From positions 8,635,563 through 8,699,562 of the forward strand of contig JAJEKV010000014.1 of NCBI GenBank assembly GCA_021234155.1: DNA of 64,000 bases. The letters run 5' to 3'. Positions 47,281 to 64,000 of the stretch are shown one piece after another. The notes beneath the pieces are model-generated. The model did not search any database. It was not told the DNA's origin and worked only from the letters and a program-made list of their open reading frames with translations. The number at the start of each line of letters is the position of its first letter. The stretch's first letter is position 1. Source of the DNA: Isoetes taiwanensis. Its lineage: Eukaryota > Streptophyta > Lycopodiopsida > Isoetales > Isoetaceae. Position numbers and translations under genes: made by a program.

Positions 47281-47348
47281 CATCGCTCTCACGTCCGCGG
47301 TTCTAAGAATGGATCCGGCACACTGTGGCGCCGGCCGACACTCATCGG

Positions 47349-48074
47349 ATGGAGGAGGCTTTGGCCTTCTTGAATCAGCACAACAGGAGGGAGTTGCAGG
47401 TAGACCCCACCGGCCCTCCGGCTGCCATAGTTGAGCTAGATCATCAGCAGCACCTCAAGTCTATTTCCAATTTAGTCTCGTGCGCAGTGCTGGTGTACTA
47501 TACTGGAGTGATGGACACCAGGAGAGTTGGCGGGTGGCTGCAGGCTCACTTCAAGCGGTTGGGGATCTCGCCATTTCAGTCTTTGAAGTTCCTGGGGAAC
47601 AATTTCTTCCTCCTCATGTTCGATGCGCCCCCGGTAGTCGAGAGGATAGTAGCGAGAGGGGTCGACCTCATGTGGGGGAATTACCTGATTTACCAGCATT
47701 ACACTCCTGGGGTGAGTGCTCGGTCCTTGTCGGCCCCGAAGATCCCGTGTTGGTTTCAGGTAATGGATCTTCCCGCAGATATGTTGCTGTTAGAGTTCAT
47801 GATTGCGATTGCCAATGGGATCGGCGGCCACATTGCTCACTCCATAGTTCAGGAGCCTAAGATTTGTGTGGCTCTTCCCGCGGATAGTCCATTGCCTCCC
47901 GCAGTGACTGTTAGGAGCAGAGATTGGTATTTTCGGTTCTCTCTCAGGCTGTTGAATGGGGCAGAGATTCAGAGAATGTTTCCCGCCCTCCAGGTCTTCG
48001 CAGGCTCGTTACCAGAGTGCAGGTCTGCGTCAGTACCGGGGGCTCCAGGGGAGGCAAGGAGGGAGGTTCCGCAG
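47349..48074 (+). pseudogene. L1-type LINE ORF1, N-terminal part (DUF4283-like), split by LTR element
   Basis: ORF1 proteins bind LINE RNA. The first ATG in frame is at 47349 (MEEALAFLNQHNRRELQ). Residues about 65-170 follow the DUF4283 pattern: SLKFLGNNFFLLMFDAP, VERIVARGVDLMWGNYL, IPCWFQVMDLPADML, FMIAIANGIGGHIA. At 48074 the frame is cut exactly by the LTR (TGTGACG). The frame could continue at 61828 (RFTMAQKLL) without loss of phase, suggesting one LINE split by the 13.75-kb insertion. Confidence 0.75.
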
Positions 48075-49559
48075 TGTGACGTCCCCTACTCGTATACGGT
48101 GCACTCACCGTATACAAATAGGAGTTCATCCCCCGTACCAGCTCCATGCTGATACAGGGCCCTCCACATATCACTGCAACCGTAATGAGTTCCAGTGGGA
48201 AGAATGAAGGGGTCATTTTACCCCGTCTCCCTCAGGGCCTACCTAGCTGCGGAAGCGTAAACATACATGTCAGTATACAACATCATCATATATCCACCTC
48301 GAAGGGTAATACATCAACATCTGCATAGACAAAGATCAGCACAATACATATAGGTTCCTACCCAAGGCTCAGACTCCAGGGGGATGACTGACGGCTTGGG
48401 TCTCCAGAGTTCATTGCAGATAGAATTCATGACAATGGATTTGGCTGGCATGAGAACATGGCATAGGGTTGTCCACTCCATCCGCCCCTCCTGTGCACAC
48501 TTTGCAGAGTAGGTTGAAGAGTGTTAGGACCTGACTGTAGCCCGCCGGATGCATAGCCAAGGGGGCTATTCCTGGGTTGCATCTCCCCAGTTCTGATGGG
48601 GCAGGTAGGGATCACTCCTTCCAGAGATCTCCATGCTGACTCAAGGTGACTAGAGGGCCACTGCCCTTATTCGACTTGAACCCACTGGAGAGTGACGCAT
48701 CACCCCATGGGTGTCGAGCCCATGCCTTGCCCACACTCAGTGGCAAGCCATTAGACCTAGTCCACTATGATCCCCGGTAGACTTTACACACCAGAGGGAT
48801 TGGTCAAGAGTCAGAACACGAACCTCTTTCTGAGCCAGTCTGGCCCCTTCACCCACAACCAGGTGTGGTTCTTGTACACAGGCCGAATACTAGTAATGCA
48901 CTAGAGGGACTAGGGTCTCTACCCCCCTTCCCAATACAATGAGTCCACAGAGTAACATCATCCATCTACATCACAGCAGAACTAAGAATTAGATTTTATC
49001 TATATCATAGAGTTAGGTTCTTTAGTTAGGGCTGGTGTCTGGGGATCTACTTGGCTACTATGGGCAATTTAATAGGCTAAACCTATTGGTTCGATGGCTG
49101 GAATACGGTTTAGGCTATTAGATTGACTAAATACCTGATCCCTGGTTCACTCCTCTTGATCCGAATGCGTCCATGTCGCTGTTCTGCTTGGGGATGCGGT
49201 CGGAAAGGGAATCTGACGAGCTAGGACGCACGGGCAGTTCTTGTGAGTCGGAATGGACTCTTGAGGCGCGCGAACTGGAGCTCGGAAGGTTCGTGGACGA
49301 AAAAGGAAGAATTAGGGTTTGGTTGCCTTACATAGGCTATCGGTTAGGTTTAGGGTTTCCATGACCCTTGGTATGCCTCTTTAAAGGTTAATGGTCTAAA
49401 GTGCGCACATTAATAAGTGTGCGCACCCTTGCAAGTTGCCCCCTAAGGCGCCACTTGCTTGGCTACACGTCGGCGTACACGTCGATTGGAATGGCGTGTA
49501 CGCGTGACGGTGCAGTACGGTATACGTCTTGAGACCGTATATCGTACTGGAATGTCACA
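48075..49559 (-). repeat. 3' LTR of the Ty3/gypsy element
   Basis: 1,485 bp, beginning TGTGACGTCCCC and ending GGAATGTCACA on the plus strand (inverted TGTGAC/GTCACA ends). Near-identical to 59281-60782, with a 17-bp indel near 60115 and scattered substitutions. It is followed by a polypurine tract on the minus strand. Perfect palindromes lie at 48092-48115 (GTATACGGTG/CACCGTATAC), 49401-49426 (GTGCGCAC), 49474-49502 (CGTACAC/GTGTACG), and an imperfect one at 49515-49547. Confidence 0.93.
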
Positions 49560-49571
49560 TTCTCCCCACCT
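49560..49571 (-). other. polypurine tract
   Basis: Minus strand AGGTGGGGAGAA immediately before the 3' LTR; expected primer for plus-strand DNA synthesis. The same tract follows the second LTR at 60783-60794. Confidence 0.8.
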
Positions 49572-50413
49572 TGAGATGTTGCTGTCCGCAACATCGTGGG
49601 TCTCCCCACCTTGGGATCTTCCTAACCTGCAATCAACTTGATGCATAAGATATACTATTATCATACTTACACATTTATTAGGATTACCTTAAGGTAATAT
49701 TTTTAGAACATTATTATACCATTATTCAATCAAATAACTTATCAATCCGTATGTCATTACAACAAGTTACCCATTAGTTTCACTTATCACAATATTTTAG
49801 TTTATCAATATTTTAATATATACAATTATTCTTTGAGGTACTCTTCATTCCTTGCAACACATTCCAACAAAATTTGTGTTGCAAGTCTTCGTAGCTCGAC
49901 CTCCTTGCCCTCCGGAGCACTCTATTGGCCTGCAGGTCGACACTACGTTAGTATCATTTTAATTATTTATAAATTTGGTTATGAGGGAACCACCCCAACT
50001 ATCTATCTCCCGGCGTAGGAAGAGGATGCTTCTTCCATCGTGGCCGTGGAGACAGCACCCTATAATGCCTATATGGCGCTCATGCCTACACCTTTAGTTG
50101 CCCAGCGTGGAGGATGGGGTCCTTCTCGTATATGGAGCGTGAAGGATAGTGCCCCATAGGCATTGGCTAGAGGTGCTTTCCCAATCAATGCATTCCTGAA
50201 TGACCTCTTATCTCTCGAGGTCGTCTACTTCCGTGGGACAGAAGTAGACTTCCCAAGCGGAACCGCGGTCATGCCTACATTGACATTACACCACGTCCTA
50301 GAGATCACCGTAGTGGTCTCATCATCGGTAACAACGCATGCAACCCATACCTAGCATAGGTTGCATGCGTAGATTATTCTTAGCTATCAAGACATAAATC
50401 TACACAAATCGAC
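49572..50413 (-). other. 3' internal non-coding region of the element
   Basis: Between the pol stop and the polypurine tract; duplicated at 60795-61657 with small indels (17-bp insertion near 61229). No conserved protein is seen. It holds small inverted repeats such as GGAAGAGGATGCTTCTTCC. Confidence 0.6.
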
Positions 50414-50427
50414 ATGCCTGAGCCGAT

Positions 50428-52642
50428 TTATTCGGAGATGATCTTGCCGTCCCATTCCTCCATAAACTGTGGGTACTGCTTTATCAGATCTCTCTTAAGT
50501 ACCCATGTTGCGTCTTCCACCGGCAAGTGTTTCCACTTGACCAAGTATTGGAGAAACTCCGATCTCCTTGTCTTCTTGAACGCTTTATCAAGAATCAGTT
50601 CTGGAACTATTTCTATCTGCTCTTCTGTCATTTCCAACATCGTTGGAGTGTCCAAGACTTCATCTGGATTGGGAGTATGCTTCTTCAGCAAACTCACGTG
50701 GAAGACTTTGTGGATCTTTAAGTGTGCTGGAAAGTCTAGGATTGGTTACCTACTCTTTGGATATTCTGAAGGGTCCAGCCCACCTTGGAGCAAGCTTCTT
50801 ACAATTTCCGATGCGGAGCTTCGCCTGCTTCACTTTTATCTTGAGCCATATATCATCTCCAACTTGGAACTCTCTGACTGTCCGATGCTTGTCGGCGATG
50901 CTCTTTTGTCGACTTGTTGCTGCGAGAAGATATCCTCAAACTTCTTCCACGAGCTGCTGCATGTCGCCCAACATTTGCTGCGAAACTTCCACTTTTGACA
51001 CGGGGTTGTGCCAAGTGTCTGGAGTTAGGCATTGGTAGCCATAATTAATCATGAACGGCGACATTTGGGATGATTCCTGCTTGGTGCTATTATATGCAAA
51101 CTCCACCAAGTGAATAAACTCTTCCCACATACCTTGCTTGTTCCAGACATAGTTTCGTAGCATATCCTCCAATATTCTGTTGGTCCTCTCTGTTTGCCCA
51201 TCCATCTGGGGATGATAGGCCGTGCTCATGGATAGCTTCGTCTGAATCGTTGCAAAGAGATCCTGCCAAAAGGCACTGATGAACTTCGGATCTCGGTCGG
51301 AGATAATTTCCCTTGGCATGCCATGGAGCTTGAAGATTTCTTTGGTGAAGAGCTTCGCCGTGTCCATAGCTGTGTCCGTGGTCCTGCAAGGCACAAAATG
51401 GGCCATCTTTGACAACTTGTCGACCACGACCATCAAAGCATCCTTACCTCTTACTGTCCTTGGAAGCCCTGTTATGAAGTCCATGCTGACGACCTCCCAC
51501 TTAGCATTTGGCACCGCTAATGGTTCCAATGCCCCTGGAATTCGAAGCTGCTCTGCCTTCGTTTGCTGACATAGCTGACATTCCTTGATGTGGCGAGCTA
51601 CTTGCTTCTTCATTCCTGGCCAATAATAGCTACTGCGCACTTTGAAATATGTCTTCATGAATCCTGCGTGGCCAGCTATTGGGCTGTTGTGGGTGTCGTG
51701 GAGGATCAACTTCCGCACCCCTGATGATTCAGACACGCACAGCTTGTTCTTATGGTAGAGAAGCTTACCTTCCTTCTTAAAATTTTTGAAGGTTTCCATC
51801 TCCTTGTCTGTTCTTGCTTCCTTGCACAAGCTTGCCCATACTTCCTTGAAGTCCACATCCTTTGGCAATGTTTCTTCAATCTTCTTCCCGAAATCGCTGG
51901 AGAGTGTCGAAATTGCATTGCAATGCACTCTAGTTGTTAGCGGATGCCTTGAAAGTGCATCTGCTACCACATTAAGCTTCCCCGGCTTGTAGACTATGTC
52001 AAAGTCATACTCTTCGAGGAACTCCATCCACCTTCGCTGCCTCAGGTTAAGGTGTGGTTGCGTGAATACATATTGGAGGCACTGATGATCCGTGTCCAAC
52101 TGGAACTTCCTTCCTAAGAGGTAGTGCCTCCAAATTCTTAACGCCCTGACAACTGCAAGCAATTCCTGATCGTGCGTCGGGTAACGCGTTTCGGCGTCGT
52201 TCATCTTCCTGGAGTCATACGCTATTCGCTCTTCTTGCATGAGCACTGCACCTGTGGCTATCTTACTTGCGTCTGTCGCCACTAACTTGTCCTTCTCTGG
52301 GTCTGGCAGGGTCAAGATGGGGGCGGTTGTTAAAGCTTCCTTCAACAATTCAAAGCCTGCTTGGGCTTTCTTGAGCCAATGGTCTGCCCAATTCTTCACC
52401 TTTTCTGCCTTCGTCAAGTCTGTTAGTGGGGCTGCTATCTTTGCGAAGTTCTTCATGAACTTCCTGTAGTACCCTGCTAGGCCAAGGAAACTTCTGACCT
52501 CGTGGACGTTCTTTGGCGCCGGCCATTGAATCACTGCTTCAATCTTGGCAGGATCCGTCGAGATTCCTTCTGCTGAAATCACATGACCCAGGTATCCCAC
52601 CTTCTCTGTTGCGAAGTGGCACTTCGACAACTTGGCGTACAA
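50428..52642 (-). pseudogene. pol, downstream part: RT end, RNase H, integrase, chromodomain
   Basis: In order: RT thumb ([19 protein letters not shown]), RNase H ([25 protein letters not shown]), integrase zinc region ([19 protein letters not shown]), integrase core ([41 protein letters not shown]: the D-D-E triad), GPFRI-type domain, then a C-terminal chromodomain (FLQYLVKWKHLPVEDATWV). Breaks: TAG at 52643-52645 where Gln is expected, TGA at 50936-50938, and a stop with frame change near 50745. Chromodomains of this class direct integration to marked chromatin. Confidence 0.92.
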
Positions 52643-57331: not shown

Positions 57332-58583
57332 TTATGGGCGTTCACCCTTAATATAACTGGCGAGATGCATGTCTTTCTTCATTAGCGTGACTCGCTTAGC
57401 ATGTACTGTGCAGGCTGTAGAATCTTCGAAGTGCTGCACTATCTTTTGCTCGGCCGCTTCCTGTAATGCCAGCAACATCTCGTCGGTTACTCTCATCCCG
57501 GTGTTAAACTCCTGCATCACTTCCCTAACTAATCGGGCGAAGGGTGCACGGGGGATTAGGAACCCGAAGCTGCGTTGAAAATGCCTAATTTCCCGCAGTG
57601 CTTTCCTCTCGCTCTCCTTTCTGCCGGCTCTCTTTTTGACTGGTGGTCTAGGAGGCTTGGGCTTCTGTGGCGGGTGGCCTTAGAGTCTGGTTCTTCGTCG
57701 GATGTCCACCTTCGATAGTTCTTACTCTGTTTTGCTGGTAATAGGAGTTGTAATCCTCCCACTTCTTCATGTATGCATTGTGCTCCCTCATCTTCCTCTC
57801 GTAGACTTTGATGGGGTCGATCACATACGCCTCTCGGGCTGGCCGCGGTGCTTTGTTTCTATCCCACGTTGGGTATGGTGGGGGCTTCTGCGCCTGCTCG
57901 GGCTGCTCCGGGTCGGGTACTGCCTGCTCATTGACGGGATCTTTCGAAGGACCTGCCTCTCTATCATGGGGGTTAAAATCCTCATCCTCCGAGTCATCTG
58001 AGGAGGATGGGGGCTTGTCTGCTGGCTGTTCTTGGATGACTACCTTGGTTCGTGGGGCTTTCTTGAGTTTCCTCTTGCCTACCTCCACGAACTTCCCCTT
58101 CTTCTTCTTCATCTCTTTGGCTGCCTTCGCCTCCTCCTCGTCCCTCTTCCTCTTCTTTTCTACTCTCTTCTTCCCTCGACGGCGTTCTTTTGCTTCATGT
58201 CGTTTGATCCACGCCTCGAGTTCTTCTACTTCGGCTGGCTCGAGCGTCGGCTCCCTCTGTTCTTCATTTTGCTTGGCCACCCGATCTTGCTCCTCCTTCT
58301 GTCTCCTTTCCTCCTCCATTTCTTCGAAGACCTTGTGCATCACGTCTCCTTCCTCTTTGTCGAGGACTTCTGTTCCCGCACCGGAGTGTGCGTCCTCTTC
58401 GACCTCTGTCTCATCCCCTTCTTGGTTGTTGGGGTTGTCGGGGTGCTCTTCGGACTCTGTCCCTTCACTAGATGAAGGATGGCCTCCTTTGTGAAAAAGG
58501 CGCTCCCGAAGCATTTCTTGGAGTAGGGCGCTGGGAGTTGTGTCTCCAGGAGGAACTTTAGCAGTTTGTTTCGTCCTGGCCAT
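57332..58583 (-). CDS. retroelement-encoded histone H3-like protein with giant charged tail (one frame change)
   Basis: ATG 58583 starts MARTKQTAK, identical to H3 residues 1-7 (ARTKQTA). An acidic region follows, then a Lys/Glu-rich basic stretch (residues about 125-175, KKRVEKKRKRDEEEAKAAKE), a SSSDDSEDEDF patch and YERKMREHNAYMKKWEDYN. That frame stops at TAG 57650-57648. The +1 frame, open from 57679, encodes PPVKKRAGRK and a full H3 fold: ALREIR (57601-57584), LVREV, LQEAAE (57466-57449), FEDS, HAKRVTLM (from 57403), final KGERP, stop 57334-57332. Loop 1 length matches canonical H3, not CENP-A. About 417 codons versus 136 in H3. The frames overlap by about 30 nt, so one base change or a +1 shift separates tail and fold. 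Confidence 0.9.
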
Positions 58584-59267: not shown

Positions 59268-59279
59268 GCTCTGATACCA
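59268..59279 (-). other. primer-binding site (initiator tRNA-Met type)
   Basis: Minus-strand TGGTATCAGAGC directly after the 5' LTR end, with one intervening base. It complements the 3' end of plant initiator tRNA-Met and fixes 59281-60782 as the 5' LTR of the left element. Confidence 0.9.
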
Positions 59280-59280
59280 C

Positions 59281-60782
59281 TGTGACGTCCCCTACTCGTA
59301 TACGGTGCACTCACCGTATACAAACAGGAGTTCATCCCCTGTACCAGCTCCATGCTGATACAGGGCCCTCCACATATCACTGCAACCGTAATGAGTTCGA
59401 GTGGGAAGAATGAAGGGGTCATTTTACCCTGTCTCCCTCAGGGCCTACCTAGCTGCGGAAGCGTAAACATACATGTCAGTATACAACATCATCACATATC
59501 CACCTCGAAGGGTGGTACATCAACATCTGCATAGACAAAGATCAACACAATACATATGGGTTCCTACCCAAGGCTCAGACTCCAGGGGGATGACTGACGG
59601 CTTGGGTCTCCAGAGTTCATTGCAGACAGAATTCATGACAGTGGATTTGGCTGGCATGAGAACATGGCATAGGGTTGTCCACTCCATCCGCCCCTCCTGT
59701 GCACACTTTGTAGAGTAGGTTGAAGAGTGTTAGGACCTGACTGTAGCCCGCCGGATGCATAGCCAAGGGGGCTATTCCTGGGTTGTATCTCCCCAGTTCC
59801 GATGGGGCAGGTAGGGATCACTCCTTCCAGAGATCTCCATGCTGACTCAAGGTGACTAGAGGGCCACTGCCCTTATTCGACTTGAACCCACTGGAGAGTG
59901 ACGCATCACCCCATGGGTGTCGAGCCCATGCCTTGCCCACACTCAGTGGCAAGCCATTAGACCTAGTCCACTATGATCCCCGGTAGACTTTACACACCAG
60001 AGGGATTGGTCAAGAGTCAGAACACGAACCTCCTTCTGAGCCAGTCTGGCCCCTTCACCCACAACCAGATGTGGTTCTTGTACACAGGCCGAATACTAGT
60101 AATGCACTAGAGGGACCATCTACTACTAGGCTTTAGGGTCTCTACCCCCCTTCCCAATACAATGAGTCCACAGAGTAACATCATCCATCTACATCACAGC
60201 AGAACTAAGAATTAGATCTAATCTATATCATAGAGTTAGGTTCTTTAGTTAGGGCTGGTGTCTGGGGATCTACTTGGCTACTATGGGCAATTTAATAGGC
60301 TAAACCTATTGGTTCGATGGGTGGAATACGGTTTAGGCTATTAGATTGATTAAATACCTGATCCCTGATTCACTCCTCTTGATCCGAATGCGTCCATGCC
60401 GCTGTTCTGCTTGGGGATGCGGTCGGAAAGGGAATCTGACGAGCTAGGGCACACGGGCAGTTCTTGGGAGTCGGAATGGACTCTTGAGGCGCGCGAACTG
60501 GAGCTCGGAAGGTTCTTGGACGAAAAAGGAAGAATTAGGGTTTGGTTGCCTTACATAGGCTATCAGTTAGGTTTAGGGTTTCCATGACCCTTGGTATGCC
60601 TCTTTAAAGGTTAATGGTCTAAAGTGCGCACATTAATAAGTGTGCGCACCCTTGCAAGTTGCCCCCTAAGGCGCCACTTGCTTGGCTACACGTCGGCGTA
60701 CACGTCGATTGGAATGGCGTGTACGCATGACGGTGCAGTACGGTATACATCTTGAGACCGTATATCGTACTGGAACGTCACA
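59281..60782 (-). repeat. shared LTR: 5' LTR of the left element and 3' LTR of the right one
   Basis: 1,502 bp, TGTGACGTCCCC to GGAACGTCACA. The PBS abuts it on the left and a polypurine tract (60783-60794) on the right, so it plays both roles. It is very similar to 48075-49559. Confidence 0.93.
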
Positions 60783-61827
60783 TTCTCCCCACCTTGAAAT
60801 GATGCTGGCCGCAGCATCGTGGGTCTCCCCACCTTGGGATCTTCCTAACCTGCAATCAACTTGATGCATAAGATATACTATTATCATACTTACACATTTA
60901 TTAGGATTACCTTAAGGTAATATTTTTAGAACATTATTATACCATTATTCAATCAAATAACTTATCAATCCGTATGTCATTACAACAAGTTACCCATTAG
61001 TTTCACTTATCACAATATTTTAGTTTATCAATATTTTAATATATACAATTATTCTTTGAGGTACTCTTCATTCCTTGCAACACATTCCAACAAAATTTGT
61101 GTTGCAAGTCTTCATAGCTCGACCTCCTTGCCCTCCGGAGCGCTCTATTGGCCTGCAAGTCGACACTACGTTAGTATCATTTTAATTATTTATAAATTTG
61201 GTTATGAGGGAACCACCCCAACTATCTACGTGAATACATGGCTAATCTCCCGGTGTAGGAAGAGGATGCTTCTTCCATCGTGGCCATGGAGACAGCGCCC
61301 TATAATGCCTATATGGTGCTCATGCCTACACCTTTAGTTGCCCAGCGTGGAGGATGGGGTCCTTCTCGTATATGGAGCGTGAAGGATAGTGTCCCCCCCG
61401 TAGGCATTGGCTAGAGGTGCTTTCCCTATCAATGCATTCCTGAATGACCTCTTATCTCTCGAGGTCGTCTACTTCCGTGGGACAGAAGTAGACTTCCCAA
61501 GCGGAACCGCGGTCATGCCTACATTGACATTACACCACGTCCTAGAGATCACCGTAGTGGTCTCATCATCGGTAACAACGCATGCAACCCATACCTAGCA
61601 TAGGTTGCATGCGTAGATTATTCTTAGCTATCAAGACATAAATCTACACAAATCGACATGCCTGAGCCGATTTATTCAGAGATGATCTTGCCGTCCCATT
61701 CCTCCATAAACTGTGGGTACTGCTTTATCAGATCTTTCTTAAGTACCCATGTTGCGTCTTCCACCGGCAAGTGTTTCCACTTGACCAAGTATTGGAGAAA
61801 CGCCGATCTCCTTGTCTTCTTGAACGC
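60783..61827 (-). pseudogene. 3' end of a second, truncated gypsy copy (chromodomain and 3' region)
   Basis: Homologous to 49560-50587. It includes polypurine tract, 3' non-coding region and the last about 50 codons of pol (FLQYLVKWKHLPVEDATWV, stop near 61672). Homology ends at GAACGC (61827), where LINE sequence begins. Confidence 0.9.
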
Positions 61828-62168: not shown

Positions 62169-64000
62169 ATGGACAAGAAGATCGTGAGCTGGAATGTTCG
62201 TGGGGTGCGCTCGTCTCCCGCGAAAAGAACGAGAGTGGCGTTGGCCGTTCGGAAGTTGGATCCAGATATCTTGTGCCTTCAGGAACACAAGTGTCACAGG
62301 GGGGATGCTCGGGCACTGTTGGACATGTTTGGGCCGCAATATGCTACTGCAGTTGCCACCTCTGGAGCCTCTAAGGGTGGGACGGCCATCGCGTGGAAGA
62401 TGCATGTGCAGGTGACTTTCACCATGGCTGACCGTTGGGGCAGGTGGGTCATCATCAAGTGGCGTGAGGGTCCGCACGAGTGGGGGATTGTGACTGTCTA
62501 TGCTCACAACACTGTGTGGCAGAGAGGGACGTTGTGGGCATCGTTAAGGCATAAGGTCGCATCCCTGGAGGCGGATGTGGCTTGGCTGCTGCTGGGCGAC
62601 TTCAACATGGTCGAGTCCATTCATGATAGGTGTGGCAGAGGAGCGGAAGTCGTGCAGGGTTTTGAGCGGCAGCAGTGGGTGATGTTGCTGGACTCCTTGC
62701 ATCTGGCAGAGACAGCGGGCGACTCTTCATTTACGTGGTGTAATCAGTGGATGGGGGCCGGCCGGGCGTACGCTCGACACGATGAAGGATGCTGATTTCT
62801 CGTGGGGATGCCAGTAGATCTGGTTTCGTACCTTTCGGGATAATTTTGGGATGCCGGGAATGGTGCAGGCCTTAGCTGAGATCAAGGCATTCGCCAAATC
62901 GTGGGGAAGTCGGAGAGCACGGCAAGAGAGGGAGGAGTTAGAGGCGTTGTATCGCGAATTGGAAGCCCTTAGGTCTCAGCCGTCTGATGGGGTGCGAGAG
63001 AATGAGATTTTGCACTGCATTGCAGCAGATGAATCCAGGAGGGCTGCTCAGGCAAGGGTCAAAGCAGGGATCACCTGGCTGCGGGAAGGGGACACTAATT
63101 CTCGAATGTTCTTTAGGGTTGCGTGACAGAAGAAGTATGCGGCCTCAATGTCGTCACTGGCATTGGCTGATGGTCGTATTTTGAATTCGCCGGTGGACAT
63201 CAAACAGGCTACTTTTCAGCACTTCTCTCAATTTTTTTTGGAAAAGAGACAGATGTGATGGAGGAGATTGTGCTCAATAAAGTGTCATGCAAGGTGTCGG
63301 CAGATGGGAGGCAAGTGTTGCAGCGCCCGCTCACAAAGCAGGAGCTTGAGGAGGCATTCCGGTCGAGTTCTTCCAAGAATATTGGAATTGGGTGGGGGAC
63401 TCGGTGTTGCAGACCTATCAAGATCTGCTTCAGGCAGAAGCGCTGGACTATAGGCTCAACACGGGCTGCATCTCGTTGATACCGAAGGTGAAGGAGCCAG
63501 CTGTCATTTCTGATTGGCGCCCCATTACGCTTCTGTCGGCAGTATACAAAATTATCGCGAAGGCACTTTCGCTCAGACTGCAGGTGGTCTTGAAAGAGAC
63601 TATTAGTCCCATGCAGTCTGGCTTCATTCCGGGCAGGCAGATTCTTAGCAACGTAGCAGCCGCATTCGAGGGCATTCACTGGGCGCGCAGAACAGGTCAG
63701 CAGATTGTGTACTTGAAGCTGGACTTCGCAAAGGCCTATGATAGTGTGCGGTGGACATTCTTGAAAAGGATGATGTTAGCCTTTGGATGTGGGAGAGCTT
63801 TACGGCAGTGGCTCTGAAGCTTTTAACGTCCGCCAGAGCCACCCTCCTGTGTCACGGCGAGTCATCTGCGATCTTTAGGGTGGGGCGTGGAGTTCGCCAG
63901 GGATGCCCTTTGGCGCCCTTCCTCTTTACCATTGTGGCGGAGGCCCTCTCGCAGTTGTTGACTTCCGCAGTAGAGGCGGGTGTGGTGGAGGGGTTGAGGA
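62169..64000 (+). pseudogene. L1-type LINE ORF2 (endonuclease and RT), runs off the window
   Basis: The APE endonuclease starts MDKKIVSWNVRGVRSSPAKR, with LCLQEHK, WLLLGDFNMVES and SSFTWCNQW; a deletion removes the endonuclease end near 62780. The linker has WLREGDTNSRMFFRVA (62851-63126). RT: WRPITLLSAVYKIIAKALS, MQSGFIPGRQIL, LKLDFAKAYDSVRWTFL, then a frame change and RQGCPLAPFLFT near 63897. Several stops make it non-functional. The family differs from LINE A. Confidence 0.88.

Follow-up and report, generated by a model that had tools for sequence, protein, structure and literature searches.

The nearest described counterpart found for the element reported here is fungal: in Pyrenophora tritici-repentis a hAT DNA transposon carries an H3-like gene, H3L, for which the available text of the paper records ESTs and 26 near-identical genes (PMC3538342). 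In plants, Ty3/gypsy elements of orchids carry an AlkB-like m6A demethylase thought to counter host control, and the available part of the same study describes a screen of 121 angiosperm genomes with 15 extra domains in LTR retrotransposons, the nine named there including no histone (PMC9289625). A histone is also encoded by a bracovirus, whose CpBV-H4 is incorporated into host nucleosomes and exerts its effect by way of the N-terminal tail, as stated in the accessible portion of the source (PMC5423620).

The window, that is, the whole stretch of 64,000 nucleotides of Isoetes taiwanensis DNA analysed here, contains an element which resembles hAT-H3L in holding an H3-like gene between its ends together with an ORF of unknown function, but which differs from that fungal DNA transposon with terminal inverted repeats, as far as the accessible text describes it (PMC3538342), in its LTRs, reverse transcriptase (RT) and integrase, in its two diverged branches and in its thousands of tails. 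No transposase was present among the Pfam matches of seven window frames. With plant Ty3/gypsy chromoviruses, as portrayed in the available part of the source (PMC3350952), it shares the order gag-PR-RT-RH-INT, a C-terminal chromodomain, LTRs and a plant-type primer binding site (PBS), and it is set apart from them by an H3 gene and a second extra gene (ORF2) upstream of gag. An extra cell-derived gene fixed in a plant gypsy lineage is a feature in common with the orchid elements, the gene being a histone here and an RNA demethylase there, going by the text available (PMC9289625). CpBV-H4 offers a further parallel, namely a mobile or viral agent that encodes a histone, but it is an H4 of a wasp polydnavirus and not part of a retroelement, according to the accessible portion of that paper (PMC5423620).

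Literature searches covering open-licence papers returned no histone-encoding LTR retrotransposon, the fungal hAT case being the nearest, in agreement with the preliminary description of this DNA, which knew of no retroelement of this kind in the literature. No chromovirus in which an H3 gene and ORF2 precede gag is known to us. The available text of a review on extra ORFs of plant elements mentions no histone (PMC7264820), the string 'retro' is absent from the main text of a review on viral histones (PMC9145170), and the word 'histone' is absent from the main text of the genome papers of I. taiwanensis (PMC8566536) and I. sinensis (PMC10541799).

Results

Architecture of the window element

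The window element is an LTR retrotransposon of 13.8 kb on the minus strand, running from 61827 to 48072. Self-BLAST of the window aligned the 5' LTR (59278-61827, with an approximate and possibly truncated outer edge) and the 3' LTR (48072-50583) at 96.7% identity over 2,550 columns, corresponding to a K2P distance of 0.0245, and the PBS TGGTATCAGAGC was read in the sequence next to the 5' LTR, at 59268-59279. The region from 54950 to 52643 encodes gag, protease and the start of RT in two frames, of which 54340-52643 matched the Pfam families Retrotrans_gag, Ty3_capsid, RVP_2 and RVT_1, while 54950-54168 had no Pfam match. RNase H and integrase follow at 52642-50936 (RT_RNaseH, Integrase_H2C2 and rve), and a chromodomain at the integrase end (50607-50449, Pfam Chromo, 1.6e-10) lies mostly within the 3' LTR. 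The Pfam domains thus occur in the order gag, protease, RT, RNase H and then integrase, which is typical of gypsy elements. Based on the LTRs, the PBS, the gag-to-integrase domains and the C-terminal chromodomain, the element is a Ty3/gypsy chromovirus; since its frames are broken, the window copy is decayed. LINE-like frames, judged by eye, are visible on both sides of the element (47325-48152 and 62169-63817, plus strand), perhaps the trace of an insertion into a LINE.

The H3 gene and its fold

The H3 gene lies inside the LTR pair, between the PBS and gag, as the preliminary description had proposed, with ORF2 (56631-55117) also located between the H3 gene and gag. Its N-terminal part is an open frame of 311 codons on the minus strand (58583-57648), which begins with MARTKQTAK (58583-58557), at the very start claimed for it, and continues as an acidic, Lys-rich linker; the 311-aa frame had no match in the Pfam search. 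The C-terminal part (57679-57332, minus strand), found in a different frame from the tail in the window copy, had been read as an H3 fold, and this reading proved correct. Its match to Pfam Histone (2.2e-27) exceeded the curated cut-off, and a PDB search yielded 175 distinct sequences, with H3.3 ranking first at 1.1e-25; these values rule out a chance similarity to H3. A model built with a 20-sequence alignment (mean pLDDT 69, pTM 0.43) predicted helices at residues 22-38, 44-57, 66-97 and 101-110, which correspond to aN and a1-a3 as in H3, and the 50 matches listed in a fold search were all histone, nucleosome or nucleosome-complex chains with 44-53% identity. Frame 57679-57332 is a genuine H3 histone fold.

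The distribution of tail and fold over two frames is peculiar to the window copy, as copy L021 encodes both in a single continuous frame of 416 codons starting with MARTKQTAR. Programmed frameshifting or splicing as the cause of the two frames was ruled out by the same copy.

ORF2, hairpins and TATA-like boxes

ORF2 occupies 56631-55117 on the minus strand, split in the window copy into two frames (56631-55900 and 55845-55117). It had no Pfam match, and a model of one part, computed from a single sequence, reached a mean pLDDT of 32.7. ORF2 is conserved in four other copies (L061, L062, L063 and L065) and is common to the two branches of the family presented below, between which it aligns weakly yet collinearly (E-values of 4e-4 and 1e-4 in single BLASTP comparisons).

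Each extra gene is preceded by two stable hairpins of about 68 nt, all on the minus strand and repeats of one another: those at 59065-58999 and 58863-58793 (RNA fold z -6.4 and -6.6) lie upstream of the H3 gene, those at 57212-57143 and 57015-56944 (z -6.5 and -5.2) upstream of ORF2. Four hairpins were likewise found in each of L064 and L065. In their alignment 89.7% of the cells were paired, versus 20-49% when the alignment was slid, with a covariation that barely exceeded that of shuffles, and an Rfam search gave no match. The string TATAAATA, a TATA-like box, occurs upstream of the H3 gene at 58692-58685 (minus strand; also in L064 and L065) and upstream of ORF2 at 56752-56745 (minus strand; also in L065), and none was present upstream of the H3 gene in the branch B copies examined. 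These strings might perhaps serve as internal promoters of the two extra genes.

Copies and tails in the genome

The genome of I. taiwanensis (1,658,258,908 bases in 1,110 contigs) was scanned with the window fold, and all 150 loci scored, out of 9,928 first-look candidates, matched it with 81-100% identity. Exact MARTKQTA starts numbered 2,079 genome-wide, versus none for a reversed-pattern control. A canonical H3 query, with 150 loci scored out of 9,064 candidates, returned 15 ordinary full-length H3 loci (96-98% identical to canonical H3).

Thirty window-type loci were fetched by fold similarity, and one of them, L021, was open from the tail through the fold. The start codon could be aligned in 22 of the 30: 16 showed an exact MARTKQTA with R or K as the next residue, four had one substitution and two were broken. 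Residue 9 was V in 19 of the 20 readable loci and I in the remaining one. A second sample was chosen blind to the fold: for the first 20 contigs with listed MARTKQTA sites, the one listed first on the contig was taken. An H3 fold was found 0.7-1.2 kb downstream in 15 of these 20 tail-picked sites (weakly in L069 and L080), several with stops or frame changes, whereas no H3 fold occurred within the stretch read downstream of the tail in L070, L076, L079, L083 and L084; none of the 20 was open from the ATG to the fold.

A general loss of K9 from the tail was considered and rejected: V9 marks the window-type copies, yet K9 was present in 13 of the 20 tail-picked tails and, after a mostly basic residue 8, in 1,075 of the 2,079 exact starts. 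It is the S10-type codon after K9 that is nearly always missing. This combination was seen in 28 of the 2,079 exact starts, 15 of which are the ordinary host H3 loci, and ARKS was absent from the start of all 20 tail-picked sites. When the full ARTKQTARKS tail was looked for, the window-type branch (branch A) was found to carry ARTKQTAR or ARTKQTARK, and branch B to have no such tail. On a single contig (C217), three identical MARTKQTA starts, each followed by K9, are spaced about 5.8 kb apart on the minus strand (120977, 126786 and 132567), perhaps representing a tandem array.

A second branch, probably with both extra genes

Beyond the 15 host loci, the canonical H3 query returned 135 further matches, 71-86% identical to canonical H3. 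Fifteen of these (L046-L060) were examined, all 15 had the same fold type, and the near-canonical fold type found in this way was designated branch B. Eight of the 15 loci had an uninterrupted frame that opened with MAxTK and encoded a different N-terminal domain ahead of the fold; in the protein of L057 this domain spans residues 1 to about 290, and no Pfam match was obtained outside the fold.

The surroundings were analysed in 10-kb stretches for three branch B copies (L061, L062 and L063) and two window-type copies (L064 and L065). An identical PBS, TGGTATCAGAGC, was present in L061, L062 and L065, about 0.75 kb before the H3 gene in the two branch B copies, and was not found in the 10-kb stretches of L063 and L064. 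ORF2 occurred in all three branch B stretches, L062 and L063 continuing to gag and RT; L061 had the PBS and no gag-pol within its 10 kb, its similarity to L062 stopping after ORF2. L065 showed the PBS, H3 gene, ORF2, gag and RT in this order, while L064 had the H3 gene and gag-pol, with neither PBS nor ORF2 found. A second element with the H3 gene between PBS and gag, the absence of which would have told against the preliminary description, was thus found in both L065 and L062. The RT-region DNA of branch B was about 72% identical to that of the window. The shared H3 slot and the weak, same-order ORF2 matches lead us to infer that two deeply split branches hold both extra genes at the same place. 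A host H3 array or an assembly artefact was ruled out by the occurrence of the same neighbours on separate contigs.

In protein searches the branch A protein gave 44 proteins, with alignments that covered at most 33% of the query, and the branch B protein gave 5,821 matches, of which the 120 listed covered at most 41% of it. As repeat elements are often unannotated in protein sets, missing relatives in protein databases are weak evidence.

Selection on the fold

Pairwise dN/dS of the fold, calculated as the ratio of means on loci picked with histone queries, which lowers dN, was 0.067 for branch A (30 loci, 435 pairs, dS finite in 269), 0.024 for branch B (15 loci, 105 pairs) and 0.018 for host H3 (15 loci, 105 pairs, dS finite in 81). 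Because these first loci had been chosen by a histone query, the analysis was repeated on the tail-picked sample, which represents the window-type tail and not branch B. Five of its 15 folds were open enough and 10 were dropped; the resulting 10 pairs showed pN values of 0.07-0.20 against pS values of 0.42-0.94, and dN/dS could be computed for two pairs (0.114 and 0.072), the other eight being saturated. With synonymous sites near saturation, these comparisons indicate that the histone is kept as a protein while its DNA has diverged.

Discussion

Few proteins are as conserved as H3, and marks placed on it are a means by which hosts silence transposons. Our preferred reading, towards which we lean slightly, is that the element makes an H3 variant which would pair with host H4, enter nucleosomes and display its own N-terminal module there. 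The first gene, between PBS and gag, encodes an H3 variant in which the H3 fold is C-terminal to a long extension, and according to this scheme its product would join nucleosomes with host H4, most usefully on the DNA of the element or on its target. On such nucleosomes the N-terminal module would replace the normal H3 tail: in branch A, whose fold is diverged, just the outermost 8-9 H3 residues are retained, at the tip of a stalk some 300 residues long, and in branch B a private domain takes their place. The outermost H3 tail peptide is bound by K4 and K9 readers, and an altered tail module would change the marks and readers possible on this chromatin, so that silencing might be weakened or integration steered; element chromatin might escape normal silencing, recruit activators or become a target for the chromodomain integrase. 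At R69, R72, R83, H113, R116, T118 and D123, which we take to be H4 or DNA contact positions, the host H3 residue is also the commonest residue of branch A and of branch B. Branch A has changes at other positions that we presume to be contacts (R63 to P, F84 to V, R128 to S and R129 to Y/H), which makes the stability of a nucleosome with its fold uncertain.

A more specific version, in which element H3 bearing ARTKQTARK would be placed on element DNA or targets, there to be recognised by the chromodomain integrase of the same element as a self-made epigenetic address, with branch B achieving the same through its private N-terminal module, seems to us unlikely. Roughly half of the exact tails of the A type contain the methylatable ARTKQTARK peptide, and the window subfamily, with V at residue 9, would need another reader. 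In the fungal element MAGGY the chromodomain binds H3K9me2 and me3, as reported in the available part of the source (PMC3350952).

Other functions can be imagined for a histone encoded by a retrotransposon. The protein could act outside nucleosomes as a decoy or mimic, with tail and fold binding H3 chaperones, readers and writers or free H4 and thus diverting host silencing factors. Branch A would suit this role, in that it keeps the outermost tail peptide and has the remaining tail replaced, and viruses with short histone mimics are described in the accessible text of one paper (PMC10208167); a bare peptide mimic, however, would not call for a complete fold kept at a dN/dS far under 0.2, and branch B has no such tail, so we regard a decoy as somewhat unlikely. 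The Lys-rich linker and the encoding of the gene within the element, upstream of gag, would also fit a structural role in the particle or pre-integration complex, where a basic protein with a histone fold would coat the cDNA or RNA of the element like an extra nucleocapsid, but the gene is separate from gag and H3-specific positions are kept beyond what a DNA coat needs, and we hold this role to be very improbable. That the captured H3 gene is a functionless passenger, simply copied along, might be suggested by the fact that the majority of the copies examined are broken, the window's among them. Against it, amino acids are strongly constrained compared with near-saturated synonymous sites, and the gene is kept in two deeply split branches and with about two thousand exact tails, which leaves the passenger scarcely credible.

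The descent of the fold bears on one more alternative, decidedly unlikely in our judgement, namely that branch A captured a CENH3 and uses its fold to reach or occupy centromeric chromatin. Among the 38 columns in which plant CENH3 and host H3 differ (three of them CENH3 insertions), the agreement of branch A with CENH3 in 12 speaks for such a capture, but it follows H3 in nine and neither in 17, and it lacks the CENH3-type insertion in loop 1, between a1 and a2, a longer loop 1 being a CENH3 trait. A first tree, in which branch B grouped with canonical H3, joined branch A with CENH3 at 97/92, but with more diverged H3s added the support was 82/53, and A and B as one clade were not rejected in either tree (AU p 0.073 and 0.28, respectively); moreover, the CENH3 rows of these trees had been retrieved with the A profile, which favours the A-CENH3 grouping, and host CENH3 was absent from the set.

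Returning to the H3 variant that would enter nucleosomes, the preliminary description had likewise proposed that the element encodes its own H3 variant, perhaps to mark or repackage the chromatin around its cDNA or target. The encoding of an H3 holds for the lineage, with its H3 gene upstream of gag, its many copies and its purifying selection; the copy originally noted is a decayed one, and the ARTKQ tail is not shared by branch B.

Gene capture by LTR retrotransposons is already known, and a maintained H3 with a tail peptide is new as far as we have searched. More than 100 H3-type starts exist for every ordinary H3 locus scored, the majority of those examined in broken copies, and in this element family nature has in effect mutagenised both the tail and the fold of H3, across thousands of sequences. 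Judging from sequence, these elements may alter host chromatin, and a retrotransposon lineage that keeps its own H3 makes it testable whether transposons rewrite the nucleosome itself.
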